26,660 nucleotides of DNA, taken from the IMG/VR virus record IMGVR_UViG_3300006058_000001, positions 1 through 26,660 of that record. One strand, 5' to 3'. How positions within the stretch are numbered: the stretch's first letter is position 1; each line of letters starts with the position of its first letter. The notes beneath the pieces are model-generated. The model did no database searches, was not told the origin of the DNA, and was given only the letters and a program-made list of their open reading frames with translations. Both the position numbers and the translations under genes were made by a program. The DNA comes from a virus. Positions 4,539 through 21,742 of this stretch are shown here, in pieces.

Positions 4539-5011
4539 ACAAACCCGACAGCCTGAAAGCTCACCTGCTGGCCACCGTGGCCGAACTCAAACACAACCCC
4601 GACCGGCTGCTGATCTTCATCGACAACGGCAAGATCCGCTGCACCGCCGCTGCAACGCTTTCCTTCGAATACAGCTTCGACCTGCAGGTCATCCTCACCG
4701 AATTCGCCGGCCACCCCGACAGCGTAATGCTGCCGCTGCTCGGCTGGCTGAGCATTCATCAATCCGAACTGCTGGAGAACCTGAGCAAGGCGGCTGATGG
4801 TATCCAGTTCGAGGCCGATATCCTGGACAACAGCAAGGTCGATTTGAGCCTGACGCTACCCCTGACTGAACGGGTGGTAGTGGATAAGGATGACCAGGGC
4901 AACACCACCATCCGTCATCCAGGTGAACCGCAGCGAGCCGCTGCATTTCTCAACCCTAACTGGATACCTGGTGCACAAGGTACTTGCAGCGAGTGGGTGC
5001 TTCCGAAATGA
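4535..5011 (+). CDS. R: Tail completion protein GpR
   Basis: 158 aa from the ATG at 4535, coupled by ATGA to lysC. GpR acts with GpS at the head-proximal end of the P2 tail to finish the tail and allow head joining. Family features are the N-terminal KPDSLKAHLLATVAELKHNP, then RLLIFIDNGKIRCTAA and FDLQVILTEFAGH. The C-terminal part has PLTERVVVDKDDQGNTTI and ends near SEWVLPK. It overlaps the start of gene S. Confidence 0.92.
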   Translation: MNKPDSLKAHLLATVAELKHNPDRLLIFIDNGKIRCTAAATLSFEYSFDLQVILTEFAGHPDSVMLPLLGWLSIHQSELLENLSKAADGIQFEADILDNSKVDLSLTLPLTERVVVDKDDQGNTTIRHPGEPQRAAAFLNPNWIPGAQGTCSEWVLPK

Positions 5012-5469
5012 CCAACCGCCTGGAATCGCTGGAGGACTGGGCGACCGGTCTGCTCGGGCAACTTGAACCTGCATCGCGCAACAAGCTCGCCCGAAGCATC
5101 GGCCAGGCGTTGCGCCGCAGCCAGCAAAAACGAATTATTGCCCAGCGCAATCTGGACGGCAGCAAGTTCGCGCCGCGCAAACGGCGAAACCTGCGCGGTA
5201 AACAAGGGCGGGTGAGGCGGAAGATTCAGATGTTCCAGAAACTTCGCACGGCTAGCTTTCTGAAAGTTCAGGGTGACGGTAATGCCATCAGCGTTGGGTT
5301 TACAGGTCGGATTGCGCGAATTGCGCGAGTGCACCAGTATGGTTTGAAAGACCGTGCCGAACATGGGGCGCTGGATGTAAAATACGACCAACGGGAGTTG
5401 CTCGGATTTGGTAAGGCGGACCTAGATCTGATCCGCGACTCCTTACTCCTTCACTTCGCTCGAGGGTAA
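5008..5469 (+). CDS. S: Tail completion / virion morphogenesis protein GpS
   Basis: 153 aa from the ATG at 5008, which overlaps the GpR stop (ATGA); an in-frame upstream extension to 4984 is unlikely. It is very basic in the middle (RSQQKRIIAQRNLDG, then APRKRRNLRGKQG) and has the conserved HQYGLKDRAEHG block near residues 112-123, typical of phage virion morphogenesis (GpS/gpG-like) proteins. It is the last gene before the inserted minus-strand DUF4062 gene, with only 15 bases between the two convergent stops and no obvious terminator hairpin. Confidence 0.92.
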   Translation: MTNRLESLEDWATGLLGQLEPASRNKLARSIGQALRRSQQKRIIAQRNLDGSKFAPRKRRNLRGKQGRVRRKIQMFQKLRTASFLKVQGDGNAISVGFTGRIARIARVHQYGLKDRAEHGALDVKYDQRELLGFGKADLDLIRDSLLLHFARG

Positions 5470-5484
5470 AATAATTTTCAGACA

Positions 5485-6531
5485 CTATTCCGTTTCTGAA
5501 ACACCAACACGCTCTATACCTTCCTTATGAATCGACAAAGGTGCTGTTTTCTTTATTGCACGGAGCTCCACCATGATTTTTTCCCCTTCAGTAGTCAGCG
5601 TCCAAAAAGGAAGAATCTTACCGCTTGTCGACTTAGACACAGTGACTTTTATCAACCCTAAAGCCTGCAGCTGTATGGCCACCGTTTGAAAAACTTGATC
5701 ATTCAGCTCATTTAGGCGAGTACTAATATTATCGCGATCACAAATTGCCACTCTAAGAACATTCTTAACAGAGTCTTGAGGGTACGCCTTAATCAAATAA
5801 GGCGACACATAGTAAAATATCTCTTTCCAAGTAACCGAGGCCACCCAACCAATAGTTCGCACGCCATTAAAATACGAACCACTCAGTTCAAAAAAATCAT
5901 CAAGCCCCGCCAAGTCAGGAACACTATAGACAGTCTCCTGCAAAACTTTAACGCTCGACAACTGCGACTTCAGCGAATCATTCTCTTTTCGCAACTGGTT
6001 TATTTCTTTTAATAGTTCCTCACTAGAACCTTCGCTCGCTCGAACCCAACCCACAGCAGGGAACAGCCTAATAGTTTTAGATAAACTTAGCGCAACTAAC
6101 CCCGGCAATTCGCTACCATTTTGCCAAAACTTCACAAGTCTACCGGTGGATGCTTTACTGCGAAAGTCCTCAAGCTTCTCTCTTGACTCCTCAGAGCTTT
6201 CGGACTTCTCCAAAGAAAGCTTACCTGGACTCCCATGTATTAAAGCAACAACCTTAATCCCTTTCTCGACAGCATAATCATACTCCTTCTCCGTGTAACT
6301 TACCCCTTCAGAACTTATGGTTCCATACCTACCACCAATAATCAAAAGATAATAATCACAATCATCAATTATACTTTTGATAAATGCCCACTGCTCTTCA
6401 TCTGTTGCGGGAAAAAGTTCCATACCTGCGGGAATACAATCCATCTCCATTAAGGTCTGGGTTACGCTTTGACGCTCCTCTTTCAAGTCCGTATATGTTG
6501 AGCTCACGAAAACCTGATAGCGCTTATCCAT
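5485..6531 (-). CDS. DUF4062 protein inserted between S and V; candidate accessory/defence gene
   Basis: 348 aa from the ATG at 6531, which has GGGGG/AAGGGG about six bases upstream; an in-frame TTG at 6537 has no room for a ribosome site. Residues 5-87 carry the DUF4062 hallmarks: [14 protein letters not shown] (7-20), AGMELFP (35-41), [15 protein letters not shown] (57-71) and [10 protein letters not shown] (78-87). This TIR-related, nucleotide-sensing-type fold often sits at the N-terminus of bacterial conflict proteins. A coiled coil follows (about 172-198), and the C-terminal third looks winged-helix-like ([11 protein letters not shown], then [12 protein letters not shown]). The gene is AT-rich and antisense to the late operon, as expected of an acquired lysogenic gene. 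Its biochemical activity is unknown. Confidence 0.85.
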
Positions 6532-6653
6532 TACCAACCCCCTTTTATAAAATCACAAATCAACATACGAGCCCTGACCCACCACATATATGATTCATCA
6601 TAGTCCATTTACTAAAAAGTCTAATGCAAGCTCCCGTTTATCTTGAAATACCT

Positions 6654-6672
6654 TGTAAGTCACGACTGCACA
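6654..6672 (+). promoter_or_regulatory. Candidate Ogr-activator site upstream of V (PV-like)
   Basis: TGT at 6654-6656 and ACA at 6670-6672 flank 13 bases, within TTGTAA...ACA. P2 late promoters carry a TGT-N12-ACA element bound by Ogr/Delta about 55 bases upstream of the start site. The present element is one base longer but shares TTGTAA and ACA, with the same spacing, with the site upstream of FI. It lies about 55 bases upstream of the preferred V start codon, so a transcript starting 55 bases downstream of the element would have almost no leader. An AT-rich CATAAT lies at 6680-6685. Confidence 0.4.
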
Positions 6673-6719
6673 GTTTCAACATAATGCACTCATCTGCGCA
6701 CAATCGCATGATCCGCGCC

Positions 6720-7292
6720 ATGAACGACTCAGCCACCCTCGCCCGCCTGATCGAAAACCTCATCCGCCCCGGCACCATCACCGCCGTCCAGATGAGGCCC
6801 CCACGCGTGCAGGTCAAAACCGGATCACTGACCACCGCTTGGCTACCTTGGATCGCCCCCCGAGCCGGCGCCGACCGCGAGTGGAGTCCACCAACCCTCG
6901 ACGAACAAGTCATCCTCTTCAGCCCCTCCGGCCAACTCGGCAACGGCTTCGTCCTGACCGGCCTTTTCAGCGACCACATCCCGGCCAACGGCGACCGCGA
7001 AGGTCTACACCGCTGCACCTACCGCGACGGCACGGTGATCGAGTACGACAGCATCGCCCACCACCTGAACGCCACGCTGGCAGAAGGCGGTACCACCGAC
7101 ATTGTCAGCCCCGGCGGCATCCACATCGTCGGTCCGATCACCCATGAGGGCGACTACACCCAGACCGGCAATCAGACCATCACCGGCAAGGTCACAGTGT
7201 CCGAAGACGTGGTCGCCGCCGGTATCAGCCTGGTCAACCACCTGCACGGCGGCGTGATGTCCGGCCCTGGGAAAACAGGTAAACCGGAATGA
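6720..7292 (+). CDS. V: Baseplate spike protein GpV
   Basis: 190 aa from the ATG at 6720 (MNDSATLARLIENLIRPG), chosen because P2 GpV begins with a similar helix; longer in-frame starts exist up to 6624 but their residues look non-homologous. No clear Shine-Dalgarno is visible. GpV is the trimeric membrane-piercing spike: an N-terminal OB-fold region (VQMRPPRVQVKTGSLTTAWLPW, split here by position), then a C-terminal beta-helix region (GGIHIVGPITHEGDYTQTG). The C-terminus HLHGGV is a typical His-rich spike end (metal-binding HxH in P2 relatives). It begins a new late operon after the DUF4062 insertion. Confidence 0.9.
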   Translation: MNDSATLARLIENLIRPGTITAVQMRPPRVQVKTGSLTTAWLPWIAPRAGADREWSPPTLDEQVILFSPSGQLGNGFVLTGLFSDHIPANGDREGLHRCTYRDGTVIEYDSIAHHLNATLAEGGTTDIVSPGGIHIVGPITHEGDYTQTGNQTITGKVTVSEDVVAAGISLVNHLHGGVMSGPGKTGKPE

Positions 7293-7633: not shown

Positions 7634-8541
7634 ACAGCTTCGTCGCCATCGACCTCAGCCAACTGCCGGCGCCGCAGATCGTCGAACAACTCGATTACGA
7701 GCAGATCCTCGCCGAGCGCAAGGCCTACGCCATCAGTCTCTGGCCGGCCGAGCAACAGGAAGAGATTGCTGCTCGCCTGGAAATGGAATCCGAGCCATTG
7801 ACCAAATTGCTCGAGGAAAACGCCTACCGTGAAACCGTGTGGCGGCAGCGGGTCAACGAGGCGTCCGTCGCCAACATGCTCGCACTCGCCAAAGGCACCG
7901 ACCTGGAAAACCTCGCCGCCAACTACAACGTCAAACGGCTGGTCATACAGCCTGGCAATCCAACGGCTATGCCGCCGATACCGCAGCAGTTGGAAAGTGA
8001 CGACAGCCTGCGCGAACGTGCGCAGATGGCATGGGAAGGGCTCAGCACCGCCGGGCCGCGCAACAGTTACATCTTTCACGCTCGATCCGCTGACGGTCAG
8101 GTCGCCGACGCGACCGCAGAAAGCCCGGCGCCGGCCGAAGCCGTGGTCACGGTGCAATCGGTTTTGGGGGATGGCACCGCCTCGCAGGCCCTGCTCGACA
8201 AGGTCAACGCCTATCTCAGCGATGAGGACCGCCGTCCTGTCGCGGATCGCCTGTCCGTTCAGGGCGCTCAAGTCATCCACTACCAAATCAAGGCCAGGAT
8301 CTACCCGTTGACCAGCGGCCCGGAAACCGAGCTGATCCTCGCGGCCGCTGAAGCCCGTTTGCTCAAGTTCGTGCATCAACGGCGGCGCCTGGCGCTGGAG
8401 GTTTCCGAATCCATCGTGCATGCCGCGTTGCACGTCGAAGGCGTGCGCAAGGTCGTGCTGGAAGATTGGGTGGACATCGTCGCCACCCGATACCAGGCGC
8501 CGTTCTGCACCCACATTGAATTGGTGCTGGGGGTTGAGTGA
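7630..8541 (+). CDS. J: Baseplate assembly protein GpJ
   Basis: 303 aa, the usual length for P2 GpJ, a wedge protein related to T4 gp6. Visible family features are the N-terminal IDLSQLPAPQIVEQLDYEQI, the block ETVWRQRVNEASVANMLALA, and DSLRERAQMAWEGLSTAGPRNSY split over residues about 118-141. A region around residues 160-200 (VQSVLGDGTASQALLDKV) is typical of the J/Mu gp47-like fold. It overlaps W (ATGA) and I (TGATG). Confidence 0.95.
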   Translation: MNSFVAIDLSQLPAPQIVEQLDYEQILAERKAYAISLWPAEQQEEIAARLEMESEPLTKLLEENAYRETVWRQRVNEASVANMLALAKGTDLENLAANYNVKRLVIQPGNPTAMPPIPQQLESDDSLRERAQMAWEGLSTAGPRNSYIFHARSADGQVADATAESPAPAEAVVTVQSVLGDGTASQALLDKVNAYLSDEDRRPVADRLSVQGAQVIHYQIKARIYPLTSGPETELILAAAEARLLKFVHQRRRLALEVSESIVHAALHVEGVRKVVLEDWVDIVATRYQAPFCTHIELVLGVE

Positions 8542-9161
8542 TGACCTACCAATCGCTGCTGCCCGGGAACTCGACACCGCTGGAACGACAGGCCGCCCAG
8601 GCCTTGGCCCAGATTCAGCGCGTGCCCATTCCCCTGCGCACGCTATACAACCCGGATCAATGCCCCCTGCCCTTGCTGCCGTACCTCGCGTGGGCGTTTT
8701 CAGTGGATCGATGGGACAGCAAATGGGCGGAATCCGCCAAGCGCTCGGCCATCCGCGCGGCGTACTACATCCATTCGCGCAAGGGCACCATCGGTTCCCT
8801 GCGCCGGGTGGTCGAGCCACTGGGTTATCTGATCGAGATTATCGAGTGGTGGCAGACCGTTCCGCTCGGTCCCCGCGCCACTTTCGCACTCAAGGTGGGG
8901 GTACTGGACACCGGTATCACCGAAGAGATGTACCAGGAACTGACCTGGCTGATCGACGACGCCAAACCCCTCACACGCCACCTGACCGGCCTCGCCATTA
9001 GCCTCGAAACTCAGGGCCGCCTGAACCTCGGCGTCGCCCTGTACGAAGGCGACGTCATCGACGTTTACCCACCGGTGATGCGTGACATCGAGGTCACAGG
9101 ACACTTCGGCGTGGTCGGTCGCGAACATTCCATAGACACCCTGGACGTTTACCATGATTGA
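8541..9161 (+). CDS. I: Tail/baseplate protein GpI
   Basis: 206 aa from the ATG at 8541, which shares a base with the J stop (TGATG); a GTG at 8538 adds one residue. GpI links the baseplate wedge to the tail fibre in P2. Recognisable blocks are LLPGNSTPLERQAAQAL, then LPYLAWAFSVDRWDSKW (about residues 43-59) and AAYYIHSRKGTIGSLRRVVE (about 73-92). The last eight bases overlap the start of the tail fibre gene. Confidence 0.95.
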   Translation: MTYQSLLPGNSTPLERQAAQALAQIQRVPIPLRTLYNPDQCPLPLLPYLAWAFSVDRWDSKWAESAKRSAIRAAYYIHSRKGTIGSLRRVVEPLGYLIEIIEWWQTVPLGPRATFALKVGVLDTGITEEMYQELTWLIDDAKPLTRHLTGLAISLETQGRLNLGVALYEGDVIDVYPPVMRDIEVTGHFGVVGREHSIDTLDVYHD

Positions 9162-10500
9162 CGCGAACTCACAGTTTTTCGCCATCCTGACCCAGGTCGG
9201 CGAGGCCAAGCAGGCGAACGCCGACGCACTCGGCCGGCCCTGGCTGATCACCGAAATGGGCGTGGGTGATGCCAACGGAACCGACCCCGTTCCGGATCGC
9301 CTGCAAACCCGGCTGATCAATGAATGGCGGCGCCAGCCGCTGAACCAACTCAAGGTCGACCCGGTGAATCCGGCGGTGATCATCGCTGAACAAATCATTC
9401 CGGCCGATGAAGGCGGAAAGTGGATCAGGGAAATCGGCCTGTACGATGCCGATGGCGACCTGGTGGCAGTGGCCAACTGCGCCCCCAGCTTCAAGCCGGT
9501 GCTGTCGCAAGGTTCCGGGCGCACGCAGATTGTGCGCATGAACCTGATCGTCAGCAGCGCGGGGAACATCACGCTCAAGATAGATCCGGCGGTGGTGCTC
9601 GCGACTCGCAGTTATGTCGATAACGTATTCGCTTCAATCATCGAGGTGTACGCGCAAAAGACGCCCTATGACGGGACGCCCGGGAAGCTCGCGAAAGTGG
9701 GTTACATGGGCTGGGGTTCCAGTTACGTCAACGGGCCTCAGTTGTTCGGCGACATGACCGGCGACCAAACGATATTTAGCGGGCTGTACCGATACTCACC
9801 GCAGACCATAGGGCATCCCGGGTTTGGCAGCGGTTACGGCAGCGTCCTGCAAGCTTCTCTCAGCAGCGCCGGTGGTAACTGGGGCACGCAACTGGTCATT
9901 GATTATGCGTTTGACGCTATTGGATTCCGCCGCCTGTCCGGGCCAGCAGGTTGGCAGCCGTTCCAAGAGATCTGGCACCGAGGCAACCTCAAGGCCGCAA
10001 CGCAAGATCAGACAAATTCGGGCATCGACGACACAACATTTGTCACCCCGAAGAAGTTTGCGGCCGGCCTCTCCGCACTGATCATCCAGGCCAGCGAAGC
10101 GATCAAGGGTATCGCCCGGGTGGCGACTCAGTCGCATATCAATTCGGGTGTAGATGACGCGACCTTTGTCACGCCGAAGAAACTGCGCTGGGGGTTCCAG
10201 GTACTCAAGGCCCAGCAGGGTTACGTGGTGTTCCCGACGTGGCTGGGTGGCTTTGTCGTGCAATGGGGGTATGCCTCCATTCCGGGAGTGGCAACAGCGG
10301 TGCCTTTTGCGTTGAGTTATCCGAGCGCCTGCTACGCCGTTGTCCCCATGGTGATCAACTCATCGGTGGGTGCTGACACAGTCGAGTTGACGCACGCACC
10401 GACGAAAAACAGTTTCACGTCGGCGGTTGTGAGTTCTGGTGCGTCGGGCCCAGCCTCGCAGGTGGCAGGCGCTTTCTATTGGCTATCGGTTGGGTTCTGA
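9154..10500 (+). CDS. H: Tail fibre protein GpH (collar domain, fibre repeats, gp53-like tip)
   Basis: 448 aa, shorter than the 669-aa P2 GpH. The N-terminal 150 residues are a DUF3751 phage tail-collar domain (FFAILTQVGEAKQANADALG, then WIREIGLYDADGDLVAVANC) that binds the baseplate. Two Phage_fiber_2-type repeats lie at residues 281-302 and 323-344. The C-terminal 90 residues resemble the gp53-like receptor-binding tip (GGFVVQWGYASIPG). The middle part (about 165-275) is presumably adapted to receptor or shaft formation. It determines host range. The downstream gene encodes a DUF4376 protein instead of a recognisable P2 GpG-type fibre chaperone. Confidence 0.9.
   Translation: MIDANSQFFAILTQVGEAKQANADALGRPWLITEMGVGDANGTDPVPDRLQTRLINEWRRQPLNQLKVDPVNPAVIIAEQIIPADEGGKWIREIGLYDADGDLVAVANCAPSFKPVLSQGSGRTQIVRMNLIVSSAGNITLKIDPAVVLATRSYVDNVFASIIEVYAQKTPYDGTPGKLAKVGYMGWGSSYVNGPQLFGDMTGDQTIFSGLYRYSPQTIGHPGFGSGYGSVLQASLSSAGGNWGTQLVIDYAFDAIGFRRLSGPAGWQPFQEIWHRGNLKAATQDQTNSGIDDTTFVTPKKFAAGLSALIIQASEAIKGIARVATQSHINSGVDDATFVTPKKLRWGFQVLKAQQGYVVFPTWLGGFVVQWGYASIPGVATAVPFALSYPSACYAVVPMVINSSVGADTVELTHAPTKNSFTSAVVSSGASGPASQVAGAFYWLSVGF
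9994..10185 (+). repeat. Two tail-fibre repeat units (Phage_fiber_2 type)
   Basis: Two 22-codon units at 9994-10059 and 10120-10185, 126 bases (42 codons) apart, are identical at 15 of 22 residues. Both share the core NSG[IV]DD.TFVTPKK. Such units form fibre shaft repeats and are common points of recombination between phage fibres. Confidence 0.85.
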
Positions 10501-10509
10501 GAGGTGGAC

Positions 10510-11034
10510 ATGAAATTTGTAACATTCGATTCCGAGGGTGTTCTCTCAAGCCGTCTGATCAGAGGCGTCAACGACATTCCACAACGCGCCATGGAGATCA
10601 ACGAAGACCTTTGGATGCAGATCACCCAAGAGGTCGACGGTGTCTGGATGCTGGTCGATGGGAAGATCATCAAGCGACCGCTGCCGGTCGCCGCCCCGGA
10701 TTTACCCACATTGGTCGCCAATGAGCGTTTCAAACATGAGGCGTCGGGCATTCGTTTCGAAGGCCGGTCCATCGACACCTCGCGCGATGGCCAAGCGTTG
10801 ATAGCCGGCGCCGCTGTCTCGGCCATCCTCGACCCGAATTACCACTGCAACTGGAAAACCGGCGCCGGGTTTATCGAGCTTCAGGCACCTCAACTGATCG
10901 CCATCGCCACCGCGGTTCGCACGCATGTTCAGGCCTGCTTCGACCGAGAGCTGGCTCTGTTGCGTGCCATTGACGCGGGTGAATATCGCGATGAAATGGT
11001 GGCTGAGGGCTGGCCAAACTCGGCGACATCCTGA
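10510..11034 (+). CDS. DUF4376 protein at the tail-fibre assembly (GpG) position
   Basis: 174 aa from the ATG at 10510 (GAGG at 10501-10504 as ribosome site); a GTG at 10504 is less likely. The N-terminal about 60 residues have an RLIRGVNDIPQRAMEI region and DGVWMLVDGKIIKRP. The C-terminal about 110 residues match DUF4376 (HEASGIRFEGRSIDTSRDGQ, then HCNWKTGAGFIELQAPQLIA). DUF4376 proteins regularly follow phage tail fibre genes and are thought to aid fibre assembly or to be fibre-associated. The exact role is unproven. It ends the V-to-G operon. Confidence 0.85.
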   Translation: MKFVTFDSEGVLSSRLIRGVNDIPQRAMEINEDLWMQITQEVDGVWMLVDGKIIKRPLPVAAPDLPTLVANERFKHEASGIRFEGRSIDTSRDGQALIAGAAVSAILDPNYHCNWKTGAGFIELQAPQLIAIATAVRTHVQACFDRELALLRAIDAGEYRDEMVAEGWPNSATS

Positions 11035-11052
11035 AGCGGCCGCTTATTCCTT

Positions 11053-11071
11053 TGTAAACCTCAAGCCTACA
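11053..11071 (+). promoter_or_regulatory. Candidate Ogr-activator site upstream of FI (PF-like)
   Basis: TGT at 11053-11055 and ACA at 11069-11071 flank 13 bases within TTGTAA...ACA, the same arrangement as upstream of V. It lies in the 113-bp gap between the DUF4376 gene and FI, where P2 has its PF promoter. No strong -10 is obvious, as expected for an activator-dependent late promoter. Confidence 0.4.
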
Positions 11072-11147
11072 TGCCCACGCGCTCGCCCATCCGGCGCGCG
11101 CGCGGCAGCCTGTGCACTGTCATCTCATTTACTGCGCAGGCAAAACC

Positions 11148-12317
11148 ATGGCCGACTATCTTCACGGCGTGCGGGTGCTCGAACTCAACGACGGCACCCG
11201 CCCCATTCGCACCATCCCCACTGCGGTCATCGGCCTGGTCTGCACCGCCGACGACGCCGACGCCACCGTCTTCCCGCTCGACACCCCGGTGCTGTTGACC
11301 AACGTGCAGACCGCCGTCGGCAAGGCTGGCGTGAAAGGCACCCTGGCGGTGAGCCTGCAAGCCATCGCCGACCAGACCAAACCCTACACCATCGTCGTGC
11401 GCGTCAAAGAAGGCGCCACCGAGGCGGAAACCACCAGCGCCCTGATTGGCACCACCACTGCCGACGGCAAATACACCGGCATGAAAGCACTGCTCGCGGC
11501 CAAGGCCAAAGTCGGCATGGTGCCGCGCATCCTGGGCGTGCCAGGCCTCGACAGCCAACCGGTGGCCACCGCCCTGGTCAGCATCGGCCAGCAGCTGCGC
11601 GCGTTCAACTACGTCAGTGCCTGGGACTGCAAAACCAAAGAAGAAGCCGTCGCCTACCGCGAGAACTTCGGCGCCCGTGAAGTGATGGTGATCTGGCCGG
11701 ACTTCCAGAACTGGGACACCGCCACCAGCGCGACAGTGAAGGCCTCGGCCGTTGCTCGTGCCCTCGGCCTGCGCGCCAAAATTGACCAGGAAGTGGGCTG
11801 GCACAAAACCTTGTCCAACGTCGCCGTCAATGGCGTCACCGGGATCAGTGCCGACGTGTTCTGGGATCTGCAAAACCCGGCCACCGACGCCAACTACCTC
11901 AACAGTAACGAAGTCACCACCCTGATCAACGAAGGCGGTTTCCGCTTCTGGGGCAGCCGCACCTGCAGCGACGATCCGCTGTTCGCCTTCGAGAATTACA
12001 CGCGCACCGCGCAGATCCTCGCCGACACCATGGCCGAGGCGCAGATGTGGGCCATCGACAAGCCGATGAATCCCTCCCTGGTGCGCGACATGATCGAGAG
12101 CATCAACGCCAAGTTTCGCGAGCTGATTGCCGCTGGCTACCTGATTGGCGGCAGCTGCTGGTACCCGGAAGACATCAACGACAAGGACACCCTCAAGGCC
12201 GGCAAGTTGTTCCTCGACTACGACTACACGCCCGTGCCACCGCTCGAAGACCTCACCCTGCGGCAGCGCATCACTGACCGCTACCTGATCAACTTCGCCA
12301 ACAAGATCAATAGCTGA
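11148..12317 (+). CDS. FI: Contractile tail sheath protein GpFI
   Basis: 389 aa from the ATG at 11148 (MADYLHGVRVLELNDGTRP), close to the 396 aa of P2 FI; a longer in-frame reading to 11112 has no support. It polymerises around the tube and contracts on infection. Family blocks visible: PTAVIGLVCTADDAD near the start, RILGVPGLDSQPVATALVSI (about 131-150), and the conserved C-terminal domain with GGFRFWGSRTCSDDP (about 264-278). The C-terminus has the ERISDRY-like LRQRITDRYLINF. It is followed by the tube gene after 23 bases. Confidence 0.96.
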   Translation: MADYLHGVRVLELNDGTRPIRTIPTAVIGLVCTADDADATVFPLDTPVLLTNVQTAVGKAGVKGTLAVSLQAIADQTKPYTIVVRVKEGATEAETTSALIGTTTADGKYTGMKALLAAKAKVGMVPRILGVPGLDSQPVATALVSIGQQLRAFNYVSAWDCKTKEEAVAYRENFGAREVMVIWPDFQNWDTATSATVKASAVARALGLRAKIDQEVGWHKTLSNVAVNGVTGISADVFWDLQNPATDANYLNSNEVTTLINEGGFRFWGSRTCSDDPLFAFENYTRTAQILADTMAEAQMWAIDKPMNPSLVRDMIESINAKFRELIAAGYLIGGSCWYPEDINDKDTLKAGKLFLDYDYTPVPPLEDLTLRQRITDRYLINFANKINS

Positions 12318-12340
12318 CCCGTGTATCGGAGAACACCGCC

Positions 12341-12856
12341 ATGGCCCTGCCTCGCAAACTGAAAAACCTCAACCTGTTCAACGACGCCCACAGCTACGTT
12401 GGCGTGGTGAAGTCAGTCACCCTGCCCCCACTCGGTCGCAAGATGGAAGCCTACCGCGGCGGAGGCATGAACGGCCCGGTCAAGGTTGACCTGGGCTTCT
12501 CCGACGACGGCATCCAGTTCGAATGGAAGACCGGCGGCCTGGACCTGATATCCCTGCGCCAGTTCGGCGCCGTCAACGCGGCCGGCATCGGCCTGCGTTT
12601 CTCTGGCCCGTTCCAACAGGACGACACCGGTGAAGTCAGCACCGTGGAAGTCGTCCTGCGTGGCCGTCACGAAACCATCGAGATGGGCGACGCGGCGCCG
12701 GGGGAAGACACTGAACACTCGATCACCACGACCTGCACCTACTACAAGCTGATCGTCGATAACGAGGAAATCATCGAGATCGACTTGCTCAACTTCATCG
12801 AGAAGGTCAACGGCGTGGACATGCTGGAAAAACAGCGCACCGCCCTTGGCATTTGA
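12341..12856 (+). CDS. FII: Tail tube protein GpFII
   Basis: 171 aa, as in P2. It forms the inner tail tube over the tape measure. Visible family blocks are ALPRKLKNLNLFNDAHSYVG at the start, then EAYRGGGMNGPVKVDLGFS and the C-terminal TTCTYYKLIVDNEEIIEIDL (about 129-148). The ATG at 12341 has a purine-rich GGAGA upstream at about 12328. It precedes the tail chaperone E by about 54 bases. Confidence 0.96.
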   Translation: MALPRKLKNLNLFNDAHSYVGVVKSVTLPPLGRKMEAYRGGGMNGPVKVDLGFSDDGIQFEWKTGGLDLISLRQFGAVNAAGIGLRFSGPFQQDDTGEVSTVEVVLRGRHETIEMGDAAPGEDTEHSITTTCTYYKLIVDNEEIIEIDLLNFIEKVNGVDMLEKQRTALGI

Positions 12857-17649: not shown

Positions 17650-18333
17650 CTACTTCGCACTTTTTGCAGGTTTTTTAACCGCTGCCTTGGATCTTTTCGC
17701 CGAGCTTCCTTTAGCGCTATTTCTAGCACTCTTATCAGTAGGCTTATAATAAAGTGATATTGGAATATGACGAACCCTGTAATCTACACCAGTAGATTGG
17801 TGCGAATGCATAGTACGTGACGTTAAAGTTTCAGAACACCGCTCCGTGCAGGCGACGGGAACCTCATAATTCGCGCCGACATGCTCCAGCCAACCGTCCA
17901 TGAAAGTCACTTTATTTTGCTTCTGAGTATATATCAACAACCCCCCTCTACTGCTAGCGGGGTTACCATCAGTGTAACGATCCGATAATTGCCGAAACCC
18001 TTCCATCAAATATGCGGGACCGTTATCAAGCTTCGCCTCTCCCATCCACTCATATCGACCATTTTTTACTAGAAGATCAACATGACCGTTTCTAAAAGTA
18101 TCGTGATCCGCGTCGAAACCAGCAGCTTTAAGCGAAATAACTATTATACCGGTAAGCTGATCCTCACCAAGCTCGTGATAAAGGGGCTTGTTACGCTCCA
18201 AGTCCAATGCTATGTCTAAAACTTTATTCTCTACCAAATCGCAAAAAGAGTCATATGTCTGGGCTATTTCTTGAAGAAAAGAGACCTTGACTACACTCCC
18301 ATCCGGCATTTGTAAGATATTGTTCAAATTCAT
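17650..18333 (-). CDS. Putative PD-(D/E)XK nuclease-like protein, third gene of the cassette
   Basis: 227 aa from the ATG at 18333, overlapping the stop of the preceding gene (ATGA). Not a family I can name. Residues 57-101 have the layout of a PD-(D/E)XK active site: E57 in a helix, D86 in GHVDLLV, then E99-A100-K101 in WMGEAKL. A GFRQLSDRYT helix follows (about 112-121) and then a strand GGLLIYTQ (about 130-137). This order of D, E-x-K strand, helix and strand supports the fold. The last about 25 residues are Lys/Ala/Ser-rich (SSAKRSKAAVKKPAKSAK), a histone-H1-like nucleic-acid-binding tail. Inferred role: effector that cuts nucleic acid in a three-protein defence module. No relative with known function is recognised. 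Confidence 0.75.
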   Translation of the reverse strand: MNLNNILQMPDGSVVKVSFLQEIAQTYDSFCDLVENKVLDIALDLERNKPLYHELGEDQLTGIIVISLKAAGFDADHDTFRNGHVDLLVKNGRYEWMGEAKLDNGPAYLMEGFRQLSDRYTDGNPASSRGGLLIYTQKQNKVTFMDGWLEHVGANYEVPVACTERCSETLTSRTMHSHQSTGVDYRVRHIPISLYYKPTDKSARNSAKGSSAKRSKAAVKKPAKSAK

Positions 18334-18728
18334 AGCTGAATCACCGTTTTATCGGCGACATACAAAATATATACGCGCTCTTTAAAATCAGGATCCAAAT
18401 AGCCATGCTCAGGGTGACTTAACGCATTATCCAGCATGGCTGCCTGCAAGTCTTCTCTACTTATATCATGTGGAACACCATCAGCATCCACATATTGATA
18501 CTGCTGTGCAAACAAATTGATAGGAGATGCCTTCAAATAATTTAAAGCTCGTTGTAAATCCTCAATTGCACAACCATCCAACGCTTCAGTTAATGCTGCA
18601 TAAGTATAAGCTGGATGGTTAATCGCAGATTTCATAACAAGCTCAACCAATTTATAACAAAAACCATCCAGCCCGAGAGGCGTTGTCTCGACTTGAATTT
18701 TTTCGTATAAACGGTCGATATTTATCAT
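18330..18728 (-). CDS. Unknown small protein, middle gene of the cassette (winged-helix-like)
   Basis: 132 aa, ATG at 18728, coupled by ATGA overlaps to the genes on both sides. I do not recognise the family. The sequence is soluble and mostly helical at the start (LYEKIQVETTPLGLDGFCYK). A helix-helix-strand pattern follows (YTYAALTEALDGC, IEDLQRALNYLKAS, INLFAQQYQYVDADG) that resembles a winged helix-turn-helix. The C-terminus is mixed (FKERVYILYVADKTVIQL). Small wHTH-like middle proteins are known as connectors in several multi-gene bacterial conflict systems, so an adaptor or regulator role is plausible but only inferred. Confidence 0.75.
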   Translation of the reverse strand: MINIDRLYEKIQVETTPLGLDGFCYKLVELVMKSAINHPAYTYAALTEALDGCAIEDLQRALNYLKASPINLFAQQYQYVDADGVPHDISREDLQAAMLDNALSHPEHGYLDPDFKERVYILYVADKTVIQL

Positions 18729-19798
18729 TTGGAAAAAGACGCTATCTTTTTAAGAACAAAATTAGAATCGCAATTAGAGCGAATTCCCTTGAGTATAGCA
18801 AAGTCACACCGAGGATCAAGTGAAACTGAGTTCTGATGTGTTCCTGGCACATACAGTTCCGGTTTAGTATTGACGCTATCAATATCAATTCGATGCCAGA
18901 TAATTGCGACTTCAAACAGTGTCATTTGATGATTAATTGCTTTAGCACCATTTAAATGGAATGGCTCCTGTCGCAAATCGACACCACCCTTCATAGTTTC
19001 CGTTTTAATCGACCCACTAACTGTTGAGAAGCCTAATTTCTTGATCGCACCGGCCGGATCTGCATAAATCTTCTTGATCAAGGGGAATAAATTTTTCGGA
19101 GACTCGAAAATTTTTTCCTTGAGCTCACTAAAGAAAAGCAGCTGCGCTTTTTTACGCAGATCATCAATCGACTTTTCCTGCTGTTTAACTGTTTGCACCA
19201 GTACATCACTCCGCGTAATATCCGCACGAAGCTCTATAACATTATGCTCAATATTGAGATAAACAACGTCAAATGTTTGATGATGATAGTGCTTGATAGC
19301 TACTATTTTATCGTGCTCTGGAAACTGCTTGAGCATAGGTGCTGTGAATTTATCGCGTTCATACTCTTCACTAATGGTGAATACACGCTTGCGCGAGTAA
19401 ATAATACCAACACCAAAAGCGTCAGAAAACGAGTGCACGATTTTTAGCTCGCCATCATCTTGCTTTAGTTGCGCTGCCGTGACAGACAAAGGAAATGCAT
19501 CGAGCATCTCACCTTTGTGCAATTTTACTTTCTGAAGAACAGATTTCACTGCCAAGGTTTTACTTGGATCGATGGAAAAATACGAAGTAGCCTTCAAATC
19601 ACAGACCAATTGAACACTTAGCGCATCAACAAGTGAATCATACAGCTTTGGATTCTTTCCAATCGCCTGAATGATAATAGCTTCAATCGCCGTCCAGCTT
19701 TTAGCAGATGGTAGCTTAGCCGTCCTCAGAATATTTTGCGCAACATTGATACCAGCGCGGGATTTTAAATTTCTTACTAGCAGCTCGGCCTTACTCAT
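18725..19798 (-). CDS. Unknown 357-aa protein, first gene of the three-gene cassette
   Basis: ATG at 19798 with GGGGA six bases upstream. I do not recognise the family; there is no signal peptide, no membrane segment and no P-loop. The N-terminal third is helical (ELLVRNLKSRAGINVAQNIL, then WTAIEAIIIQAIGKN). The middle looks like an alpha/beta domain with strands GIIYSRKRVFTIS and FDVVYLNIEHNVIEL (about 140-195), ending in a charged helix KQQEKSIDDLRKKAQ. The C-terminal third holds IIWHRIDID and ends in a basic helix. The overall look, a DUF4868/KwaB-like central strand pair, is only a weak impression. As first gene of a coupled operon ending in a nuclease-like protein it may be the sensor or recognition subunit. 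It is AT-rich compared with the flanking phage genes. Confidence 0.75.
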   Translation of the reverse strand: MSKAELLVRNLKSRAGINVAQNILRTAKLPSAKSWTAIEAIIIQAIGKNPKLYDSLVDALSVQLVCDLKATSYFSIDPSKTLAVKSVLQKVKLHKGEMLDAFPLSVTAAQLKQDDGELKIVHSFSDAFGVGIIYSRKRVFTISEEYERDKFTAPMLKQFPEHDKIVAIKHYHHQTFDVVYLNIEHNVIELRADITRSDVLVQTVKQQEKSIDDLRKKAQLLFFSELKEKIFESPKNLFPLIKKIYADPAGAIKKLGFSTVSGSIKTETMKGGVDLRQEPFHLNGAKAINHQMTLFEVAIIWHRIDIDSVNTKPELYVPGTHQNSVSLDPRCDFAILKGIRSNCDSNFVLKKIASFSK

Positions 19799-20981: not shown

Positions 20982-21455
20982 ATGAAACGCCCAGTTCTAG
21001 CCAACCGGAAAGATGTTGTCAGCGCCGTTATCTGCGCTTACCCAGGCGGTCGCCTTTATGCCGCTGCCGAACTGGGTATGCCGGTGAAAAAGTTCGATAA
21101 CCAGGCCTATGAGAGTGCCGGCAGTCGCCCCCTGAGCGACGACCACATTCACCGGCTTGAGCAGATTGCGGGTACTGCCTATTTGGCGAATTACATCGCA
21201 GCCAAATACGGCGGCATATTTGTTCCGCTGACCGCTGCGGCAGACCTGGACAATGTCGAGTTATACAACCGGTCAGTCAAGGCGGCCGCCAAGCGCGGCA
21301 AAGTTGATCAGATTATTGCTGCGGCCCTGGACGACGGGGTGATCAAACCCGATGAGGCCCAGGCGATTATCACAGCCTTGATGAACTACATGTCCGCTCG
21401 CTACGCCGAGGTGCTGGCCACCATCCAGCTGCACGCTCGGGGGGCTGTCAGGTGA
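20982..21455 (+). CDS. CII/YmfL-type phage regulatory protein
   Basis: 157 aa from the ATG at 20982, preceded by AAGGAG ten bases upstream; longer readings from 20958/20961 lack this site. The N-terminal half has AVICAYPGGRLYAAAELGMP, then KKFDNQAYESAGSRPLSDDH and GTAYLANYIAAKYGGIFVPL, the pattern of the YmfL/phage CII-like regulators. The second half is helical (KRGKVDQIIAAALDDGVIKP). Role presumably in early gene control or the lysis/lysogeny choice. It overlaps the ogr-like gene (GTGA). Confidence 0.75.
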   Translation: MKRPVLANRKDVVSAVICAYPGGRLYAAAELGMPVKKFDNQAYESAGSRPLSDDHIHRLEQIAGTAYLANYIAAKYGGIFVPLTAAADLDNVELYNRSVKAAAKRGKVDQIIAAALDDGVIKPDEAQAIITALMNYMSARYAEVLATIQLHARGAVR

Positions 21456-21742
21456 GCACCTACAAACTCGTTTGCCCCCACTGCTTCAGCCGCATGCGCA
21501 TCCGCACCAGCGAAGGCACCCACATCTTCCTGCGTGTGGCCTATCTGCAATGCACCAATGAGGCCTGCGGTTGGTCGGTGCGTGCCCAGTTCGAAATGAC
21601 TCACGAGATGAGCCCAAGCGGCATGGCCAACCCAGCCGTGCGCCTGCCTGTCGCCGACATTGCACTGCGCCGCGCCGCGATGAAGACCGCCAACGATCAA
21701 CCCGACCTGCTCGACCAAATGGAAATGGAGTGTGCGCAATGA
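21452..21742 (+). CDS. ogr: Ogr/Delta-like zinc-finger activator of late genes
   Basis: 96 aa with a GTG start at 21452 that overlaps the preceding stop. It has the exact Ogr/Delta zinc signature C-X2-C-X22-C-X4-C (CPHC at 8-11, then CTNEAC), with the typical MRIRTSEGTHIFLRVAYLQC spacing, followed by a helical C-terminal tail. Ogr binds upstream of late promoters and contacts RNA polymerase alpha. In P2, ogr is beside D; here it sits in the early operon after the CII-like gene. Its likely targets are the sites upstream of V and FI. The stop overlaps the next start (ATGA). Confidence 0.9.
   Translation: MSTYKLVCPHCFSRMRIRTSEGTHIFLRVAYLQCTNEACGWSVRAQFEMTHEMSPSGMANPAVRLPVADIALRRAAMKTANDQPDLLDQMEMECAQ

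Follow-up and report, generated by a model that had tools for sequence, protein, structure and literature searches.

We identified, in the late region of a P2-like phage, a minus-strand gene that probably represents a prophage-borne member of the Swarozyc (Swz) family of defence NADases. It lies antisense between the tail completion gene S and the baseplate gene V. The window (the whole stretch of DNA analysed) is a virus record of 26,660 bases, the first gene of which encodes a P2-type major capsid protein (TIGR01551, 1.1e-96); the portal, terminase and scaffold genes fall outside it. Our reading is built on comparison of the predicted protein with KpSwz of Klebsiella pneumoniae, the founding Swarozyc member, described in a May 2026 preprint as a portal-triggered NADase that causes abortive infection and is found in bacterial defence islands (PMC13174449). 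It also draws on a survey of the S-V junction in related phages.

An intact, AT-rich gene between S and V

The open reading frame is intact and begins with an ATG at position 6531. Its GC content is 42%, against about 62% in the surrounding late region, and local values of 0.39–0.46 at the gene rise to 0.58–0.65 on both flanks. Pfam identified gpR (PF06891, 6e-49) and gpS (PF05069, 3e-33) on the left side, and gpV (PF04717/Apex) and gpW (PF04965) on the right side. The original prediction of an AT-rich minus-strand gene of about 1 kb separating S from V is thus confirmed. Its further proposal, that this gene is expressed independently of the late genes, is conjectural: the gene is antisense and lies outside the pV box, which agrees with it, but no sigma-70-like promoter was found within 5380–6780. 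The coordinates of all features are given in Table 1.

Table 1. Features of the window (positions in nucleotides; aa, residues of the Swz homologue)
Feature	Position	Strand	Basis or remark
Swarozyc (Swz) homologue, putative DUF4062 TIR-like NADase with stalk and AUX sensor	5485..6531	-	348 aa
TIR-like effector domain, aa 1-136	6124..6531	-	70% identical to KpSwz
Predicted catalytic Glu E83 codon	6283..6285	-	ORF coordinates and alignment
Helical stalk, aa 167-200 (model helix 171-198)	5932..6033	-	structure model
AUX sensor domain, aa 201-328, winged-helix core	5548..5931	-	28% identical to KpSwz
Predicted portal-recognition beta-hairpin, aa 213-234, tip Y220-F221	5830..5895	-	model and alignment
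Tail completion gene S, bounding the cargo slot on the left	5008..5469	+	Pfam
Late activator palindrome of the Ogr type (TTGTA..N..ACA), bounding the slot on the right, about 66 bp upstream of V	6653..6673	+	
Baseplate gene V, first gene of the V operon	6720..7292	+	
Ogr/Delta zinc-finger late activator; the palindrome is its presumed site of action	21452..21742	+	PF04606, 2.6e-16

Elsewhere in the window, three adjacent minus-strand frames of 227, 132 and 357 aa follow gpD (17650–19798). They correspond to phrog_9664, phrog_11490 and phrog_12777, all of unknown function, and the 357-aa product weakly matches the PADLOC Mem_03 model (E=0.002). This region is possibly another cargo site.

The protein is a homologue of KpSwz

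The product carries a DUF4062 domain at residues 6–87 (PF13271, 4.6e-31, with a score of 107.3 against a cut-off of 24.7 bits) and matches phrog_15411 over its full length (4.6e-111). A sequence search of the PDB identified a full-length homologue, KpSwz (entries 10wc, 11cq and 11cv, named 'KpSwz TIR/DUF4062'; E=3.5e-90). The phmmer match covers residues 1–328, and a profile made from 80 relatives hits KpSwz with E=1.2e-128. Identity is 50% overall; by domain it is 70% (TIR-like), 34% (stalk) and 28% (AUX). Residue E83 aligns with the catalytic glutamate of KpSwz, E97; the solved KpSwz chain carries the E97A substitution, and that alanine is the residue facing E83 in the alignment. Glutamate occupies this position in 80/80 relatives. 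The core-dimer contacts named for KpSwz, D16, R18, D71 and W176 (PMC13174449), correspond to D2, R4, D57 and W162 and are all conserved. In the C-terminal domain, Y220 and F221 align with W238 and Y239, which anchor the hairpin of the HTH/winged domain by which KpSwz binds the phage portal (PMC13174449).

An AlphaFold2 model (mean pLDDT 86, pTM 0.52) is reliable for the individual domains and not for their relative placement. It shows a helix at residues 171–198 followed by the C-terminal domain, in which a beta-hairpin (strands 213–221 and 226–234) is located exactly at Y220/F221. In Foldseek searches the N-terminal part matched TIR folds (TIR-STING, RPS4/RRS1, AbTir, SARM1 and the SPARTA TIR) and the C-terminal part matched PadR-type winged helices. 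KpSwz itself was absent from the Foldseek matches, probably since the library ends on 2026-04-08. The TIR-related DUF4062 fold announced in the original prediction is recovered both by PF13271 and by structural comparison, and its coiled coil and winged-helix-like C-terminus are supported by the model helix and the PadR-type matches. The sensor-effector organization proposed there is supported by homology to a protein of solved structure with a portal-binding C-terminal domain. Two other domain hits, NCBIfam YhbY at residues 274–302 (weak and far below cut-off) and the Pfam coiled-coil family Herpes_BLRF2 (weak), were dismissed as chance matches.

Judged from its sequence, the protein is a member of Swarozyc, sharing with KpSwz the order TIR-like DUF4062, stalk and HTH/winged AUX domain, the glutamate, the dimer residues and, in the alignment, an aromatic pair at the tip of a predicted hairpin. 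It differs from KpSwz in being carried by a P2-like phage instead of a bacterial defence island, in its divergent AUX domain and in its shorter hairpin. As judged from the model, it would share a TIR-like fold and an NADase logic with canonical TIR NADases such as SARM1, AbTir, TIR-STING and the SPARTA TIR; unlike the relation to KpSwz, no significant sequence match to them appeared in the PDB search, and DUF4062 dimerises via a different (AB) interface (PMC13174449). PADLOC gave no family match for the Swz homologue at E<=0.1, Thoeris and the other listed TIR defence systems included, and INPHARED phage records contained only remote relatives (24% identity).

A horizontally acquired passenger, unexpressed or no longer working, could also be AT-rich and devoid of a promoter-like match, as here. 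We consider this improbable: the frame is open, the catalytic and dimer residues are all intact, the TIR core is strongly conserved, and intact copies occupy the same slot in at least five P2-like phages.

The S-V junction is a cargo slot

The original prediction assumed that V comes directly after S, at a short distance, in P2. This does not hold for P2 itself (AF063097), where the order is S, a terminator, the minus-strand nonessential orf30 (786 bp), the pV activator site and V. Close spacing is found in D14A-type phages, with an S-V distance of 69 bp. From IMG/VR we collected 129 loci through relatives of gpS (loci are designated by L numbers throughout), determined the length of the S-V gap in each, and counted a junction as occupied when the gap exceeded 200 bp. 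By this measure 113/129 junctions (88%) are occupied; the others have little or nothing between the two genes (61–100 bp). The gap has a median of 921 bp over all loci and a maximum of 2858 bp, and the mean GC content of occupied gaps is 0.44. The neighbouring junctions are tight, V-W being at most 17 bp long and R-S having a median of -4. Variable cargo is therefore a property of the S-V junction and not of the region.

The cargo comprises about 50 families, encoded on either strand. Established defence proteins are among them: Shedu SduA (2.4e-198), PD-T4-6 (1.8e-200), Septu PtuA (2.8e-97) and OLD (9e-57, in Burkholderia phage KS5). A PDC-S15/FRG protein and an AbiV-like protein also occur. 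The presence of SduA, PtuA, PD-T4-6 and Old counts in favour of a defence function for the gene in the window. The accessory site with variable cargo that had been proposed is thus upheld by the junction comparison, and few of the surveyed junctions hold a Swz gene. Among cargo of unrecognised function, 15 members are related to L158:4966-5769 (DUF4145), 11 to L150:1816-2538 and six to L203:4965-6218. The slots of L158, L150, L203, L212 and others contain candidates for undescribed defence genes.

The right edge of the slot is marked by a palindrome, TGT-N11-13-ACA, located 63–68 bp upstream of V in 112/115 distinct loci (0.6% in shuffled sequence). The annotated pV activator site of P2 contains a palindrome of the same type at the same place. 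In the window it is recognisable with a degenerate second arm. Cargo is therefore inserted after the S stop codon and before the late-promoter element, so that neither late operon is interrupted. At the left edge, the last residues of gpS differ among otherwise near-identical phages with different cargo (L108, L109 and the window), as if the 3' end of the gene were replaced by cargo exchange.

Its location among essential tail genes could suggest that the gene is a fixed regulatory or structural component of the phage instead of cargo. The junction comparison already refutes this explanation, to which we give next to no credence: the slot is empty in D14A and others (61–100 bp), filled by other families in most relatives, and occupied in P2 by a gene annotated as nonessential. 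Furthermore, in L003 and L005 the phage backbone is 91–93% identical in nucleotide sequence to the window and the slot only 50–74%.

Swz genes in other phages and in bacterial chromosomes

At least five P2-like phages carry an intact Swz gene antisense in the S-V slot. Their products show 66% (L003/L005), 62% (L006, identical to L191), 61% (L007) and 69% (L207) identity to the window protein, and L004 contributes a further fragment. L003 and L005 have capsid and sheath proteins 99% identical to those of the window, and the drop in DNA identity across the slot resembles that seen in the tail-fibre region. With slot identity so far below that of the backbone, the cargo has been exchanged, or diversifies much faster than the phage. 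In the tail-fibre and assembly region itself (9500–11050, with the tail-collar fibre PF12571 and DUF4376), DNA identity to L005 is about 45–50% in a backbone otherwise above 90%; this divergence is an exchange of the receptor-binding module.

Further Swz relatives are found beside the portal gene Q (L012, L013, L017, L020 and L066). This recurrence in P2-like phages, in the S-V slot and next to Q, also counts in favour of the defence reading. In L022, a phage with most late proteins 70–82% identical to those of P2, the S-V slot holds a DUF4062 protein with a different C-terminus (L022:1773-3107, plus strand, 444 aa, the C-terminal part longer and unrelated). Here the same effector seems to be combined, within the same slot, with another sensor.

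We also searched 300 genomes drawn from the genus of a Pseudomonas carrier (L026), and 13 contained a relative at E<=1e-10, a patchy distribution. The neighbours of chromosomal Swz relatives are sparsely PADLOC-positive, so the link to defence is drawn from the phage slot and from the published survey. Genes flanking these chromosomal relatives gave five matches to RtcR-type CARF/sigma-54 activators or sigma-54 domains and three to RtcB. Our guess is that these Rtc matches come from the Psychrobacter loci L056, L062 and L067, around 8000–12700.

Effector and sensor evolve at different rates

Averaged over 79 relatives, identity to the window protein amounts to 68% for the TIR-like domain, 31% for the AUX domain and 20% for the hairpin. 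For the closest phage-borne relatives the corresponding ranges are 75–82%, 48–55% and 32–50%. No segment of the family is less conserved than the hairpin, which also varies in length. Such a fast-changing hairpin resembles a recognition surface under pressure from a shifting target, which is consistent with portal sensing as far as sequence comparison can tell. Enrichment of aromatic residues at the hairpin tip is weak across the whole family (13.7%, against 10.4% in the AUX domain), and the aromatic-tip argument is therefore drawn only from the direct alignment with KpSwz.

With just 28% identity between the two AUX domains, the trigger may not be a portal. The protein could be a Swarozyc-type NADase whose AUX domain senses another virion protein, another phage-specific protein, or DNA or RNA through its winged helix. 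The low conservation and variable length of the hairpin, the structural matches to PadR-type regulators and the different, longer C-terminus of the L022 protein in the same slot all speak for such a sensor. However, the AUX domain can be aligned with that of KpSwz over its whole length and retains two aromatic residues at the predicted hairpin tip, so that we regard a non-portal trigger as rather unlikely.

Portal sensing raises a problem of self-recognition, as this phage family encodes its own portal, gpQ. Were a P2-type portal the trigger, induction of the prophage would be self-defeating. Either P2-type portals are not seen by the sensor, or the prophage evades the conflict through timing. 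We looked for adaptation of the carriers' portals and detected no signal, the portals of L005 and L207 sharing 86–93% identity with those of most close siblings that lack Swz. For a comparison with the Bas14 portal we searched the PDB with P2 gpQ, which gave no meaningful sequence match.

Discussion

The reading that we favour, a defence NADase of the Swarozyc type carried by a prophage, suggests the following mechanism. In the lysogen, the protein would rest as a TIR-headed, autoinhibited dimer or oligomer. A structural protein of a competing phage, most likely its portal, would act as the trigger. The AUX domains would dock onto it through the Y220/F221 tip of the beta-hairpin, and docking would align the stalks and bring the TIR heads into their active state. 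Hydrolysis of NAD+, dependent on E83, would then drain the cell of NAD and abort the infection, protecting sister lysogens. By analogy with KpSwz, we infer expression, NADase activity and triggering by foreign portals for the copy in the window; portal sensing is the least certain of these steps.

The Swarozyc family and its mechanism (2026) were already known, and in P2-like phages the orf30 region had been regarded as a place where genes are acquired (Lynch et al. 2010, PMC3091744). The Swz gene resembles P2 orf30 in occupying the same S-V slot, antisense, before the pV activator site; unlike Swz, orf30 encodes an unrelated protein of unknown function with no Pfam match. Besides S-V, P2-like phages have accessory loci at Z/fun and TO (old-tin). 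The cos-proximal A-Q locus has been described as a defence hotspot in E. coli P2-like phages (Rousset et al. 2022, PMC9122126). It is likewise a P2-like locus with exchangeable defence genes, and Swz relatives also occur beside Q. In contrast to the A-Q locus analysed in that study, the S-V slot lies inside the late region and has a late-activator palindrome as its boundary. The main text of the Swarozyc preprint makes no mention of prophages (PMC13174449). In a limited literature search we found neither a description of Swarozyc in prophages nor one of the Pseudomonas-type P2-like S-V slot as a palindrome-bounded defence hotspot.

Taken further, the S-V slot could be an exchangeable defence bay sealed by the palindrome, in which the hairpin of the Swz homologue is tuned to the portals of competitors and ignores that of its carrier. 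We put this forward tentatively, as a speculation in which we have limited confidence. If it were true, discrimination between self and non-self among phage portals would be encoded in one protein domain.

Our analysis places Swarozyc in temperate phages that make portals themselves, so that natural pairs of protein and portal can serve to test directly how a portal sensor deals with self and non-self. The old orf30 slot of P2 proves to be a busy defence hotspot, bounded by a late promoter, in phages related to Pseudomonas P2-like phages. With about 50 cargo families, many without known function, it offers a practical hunting ground for new defence genes.
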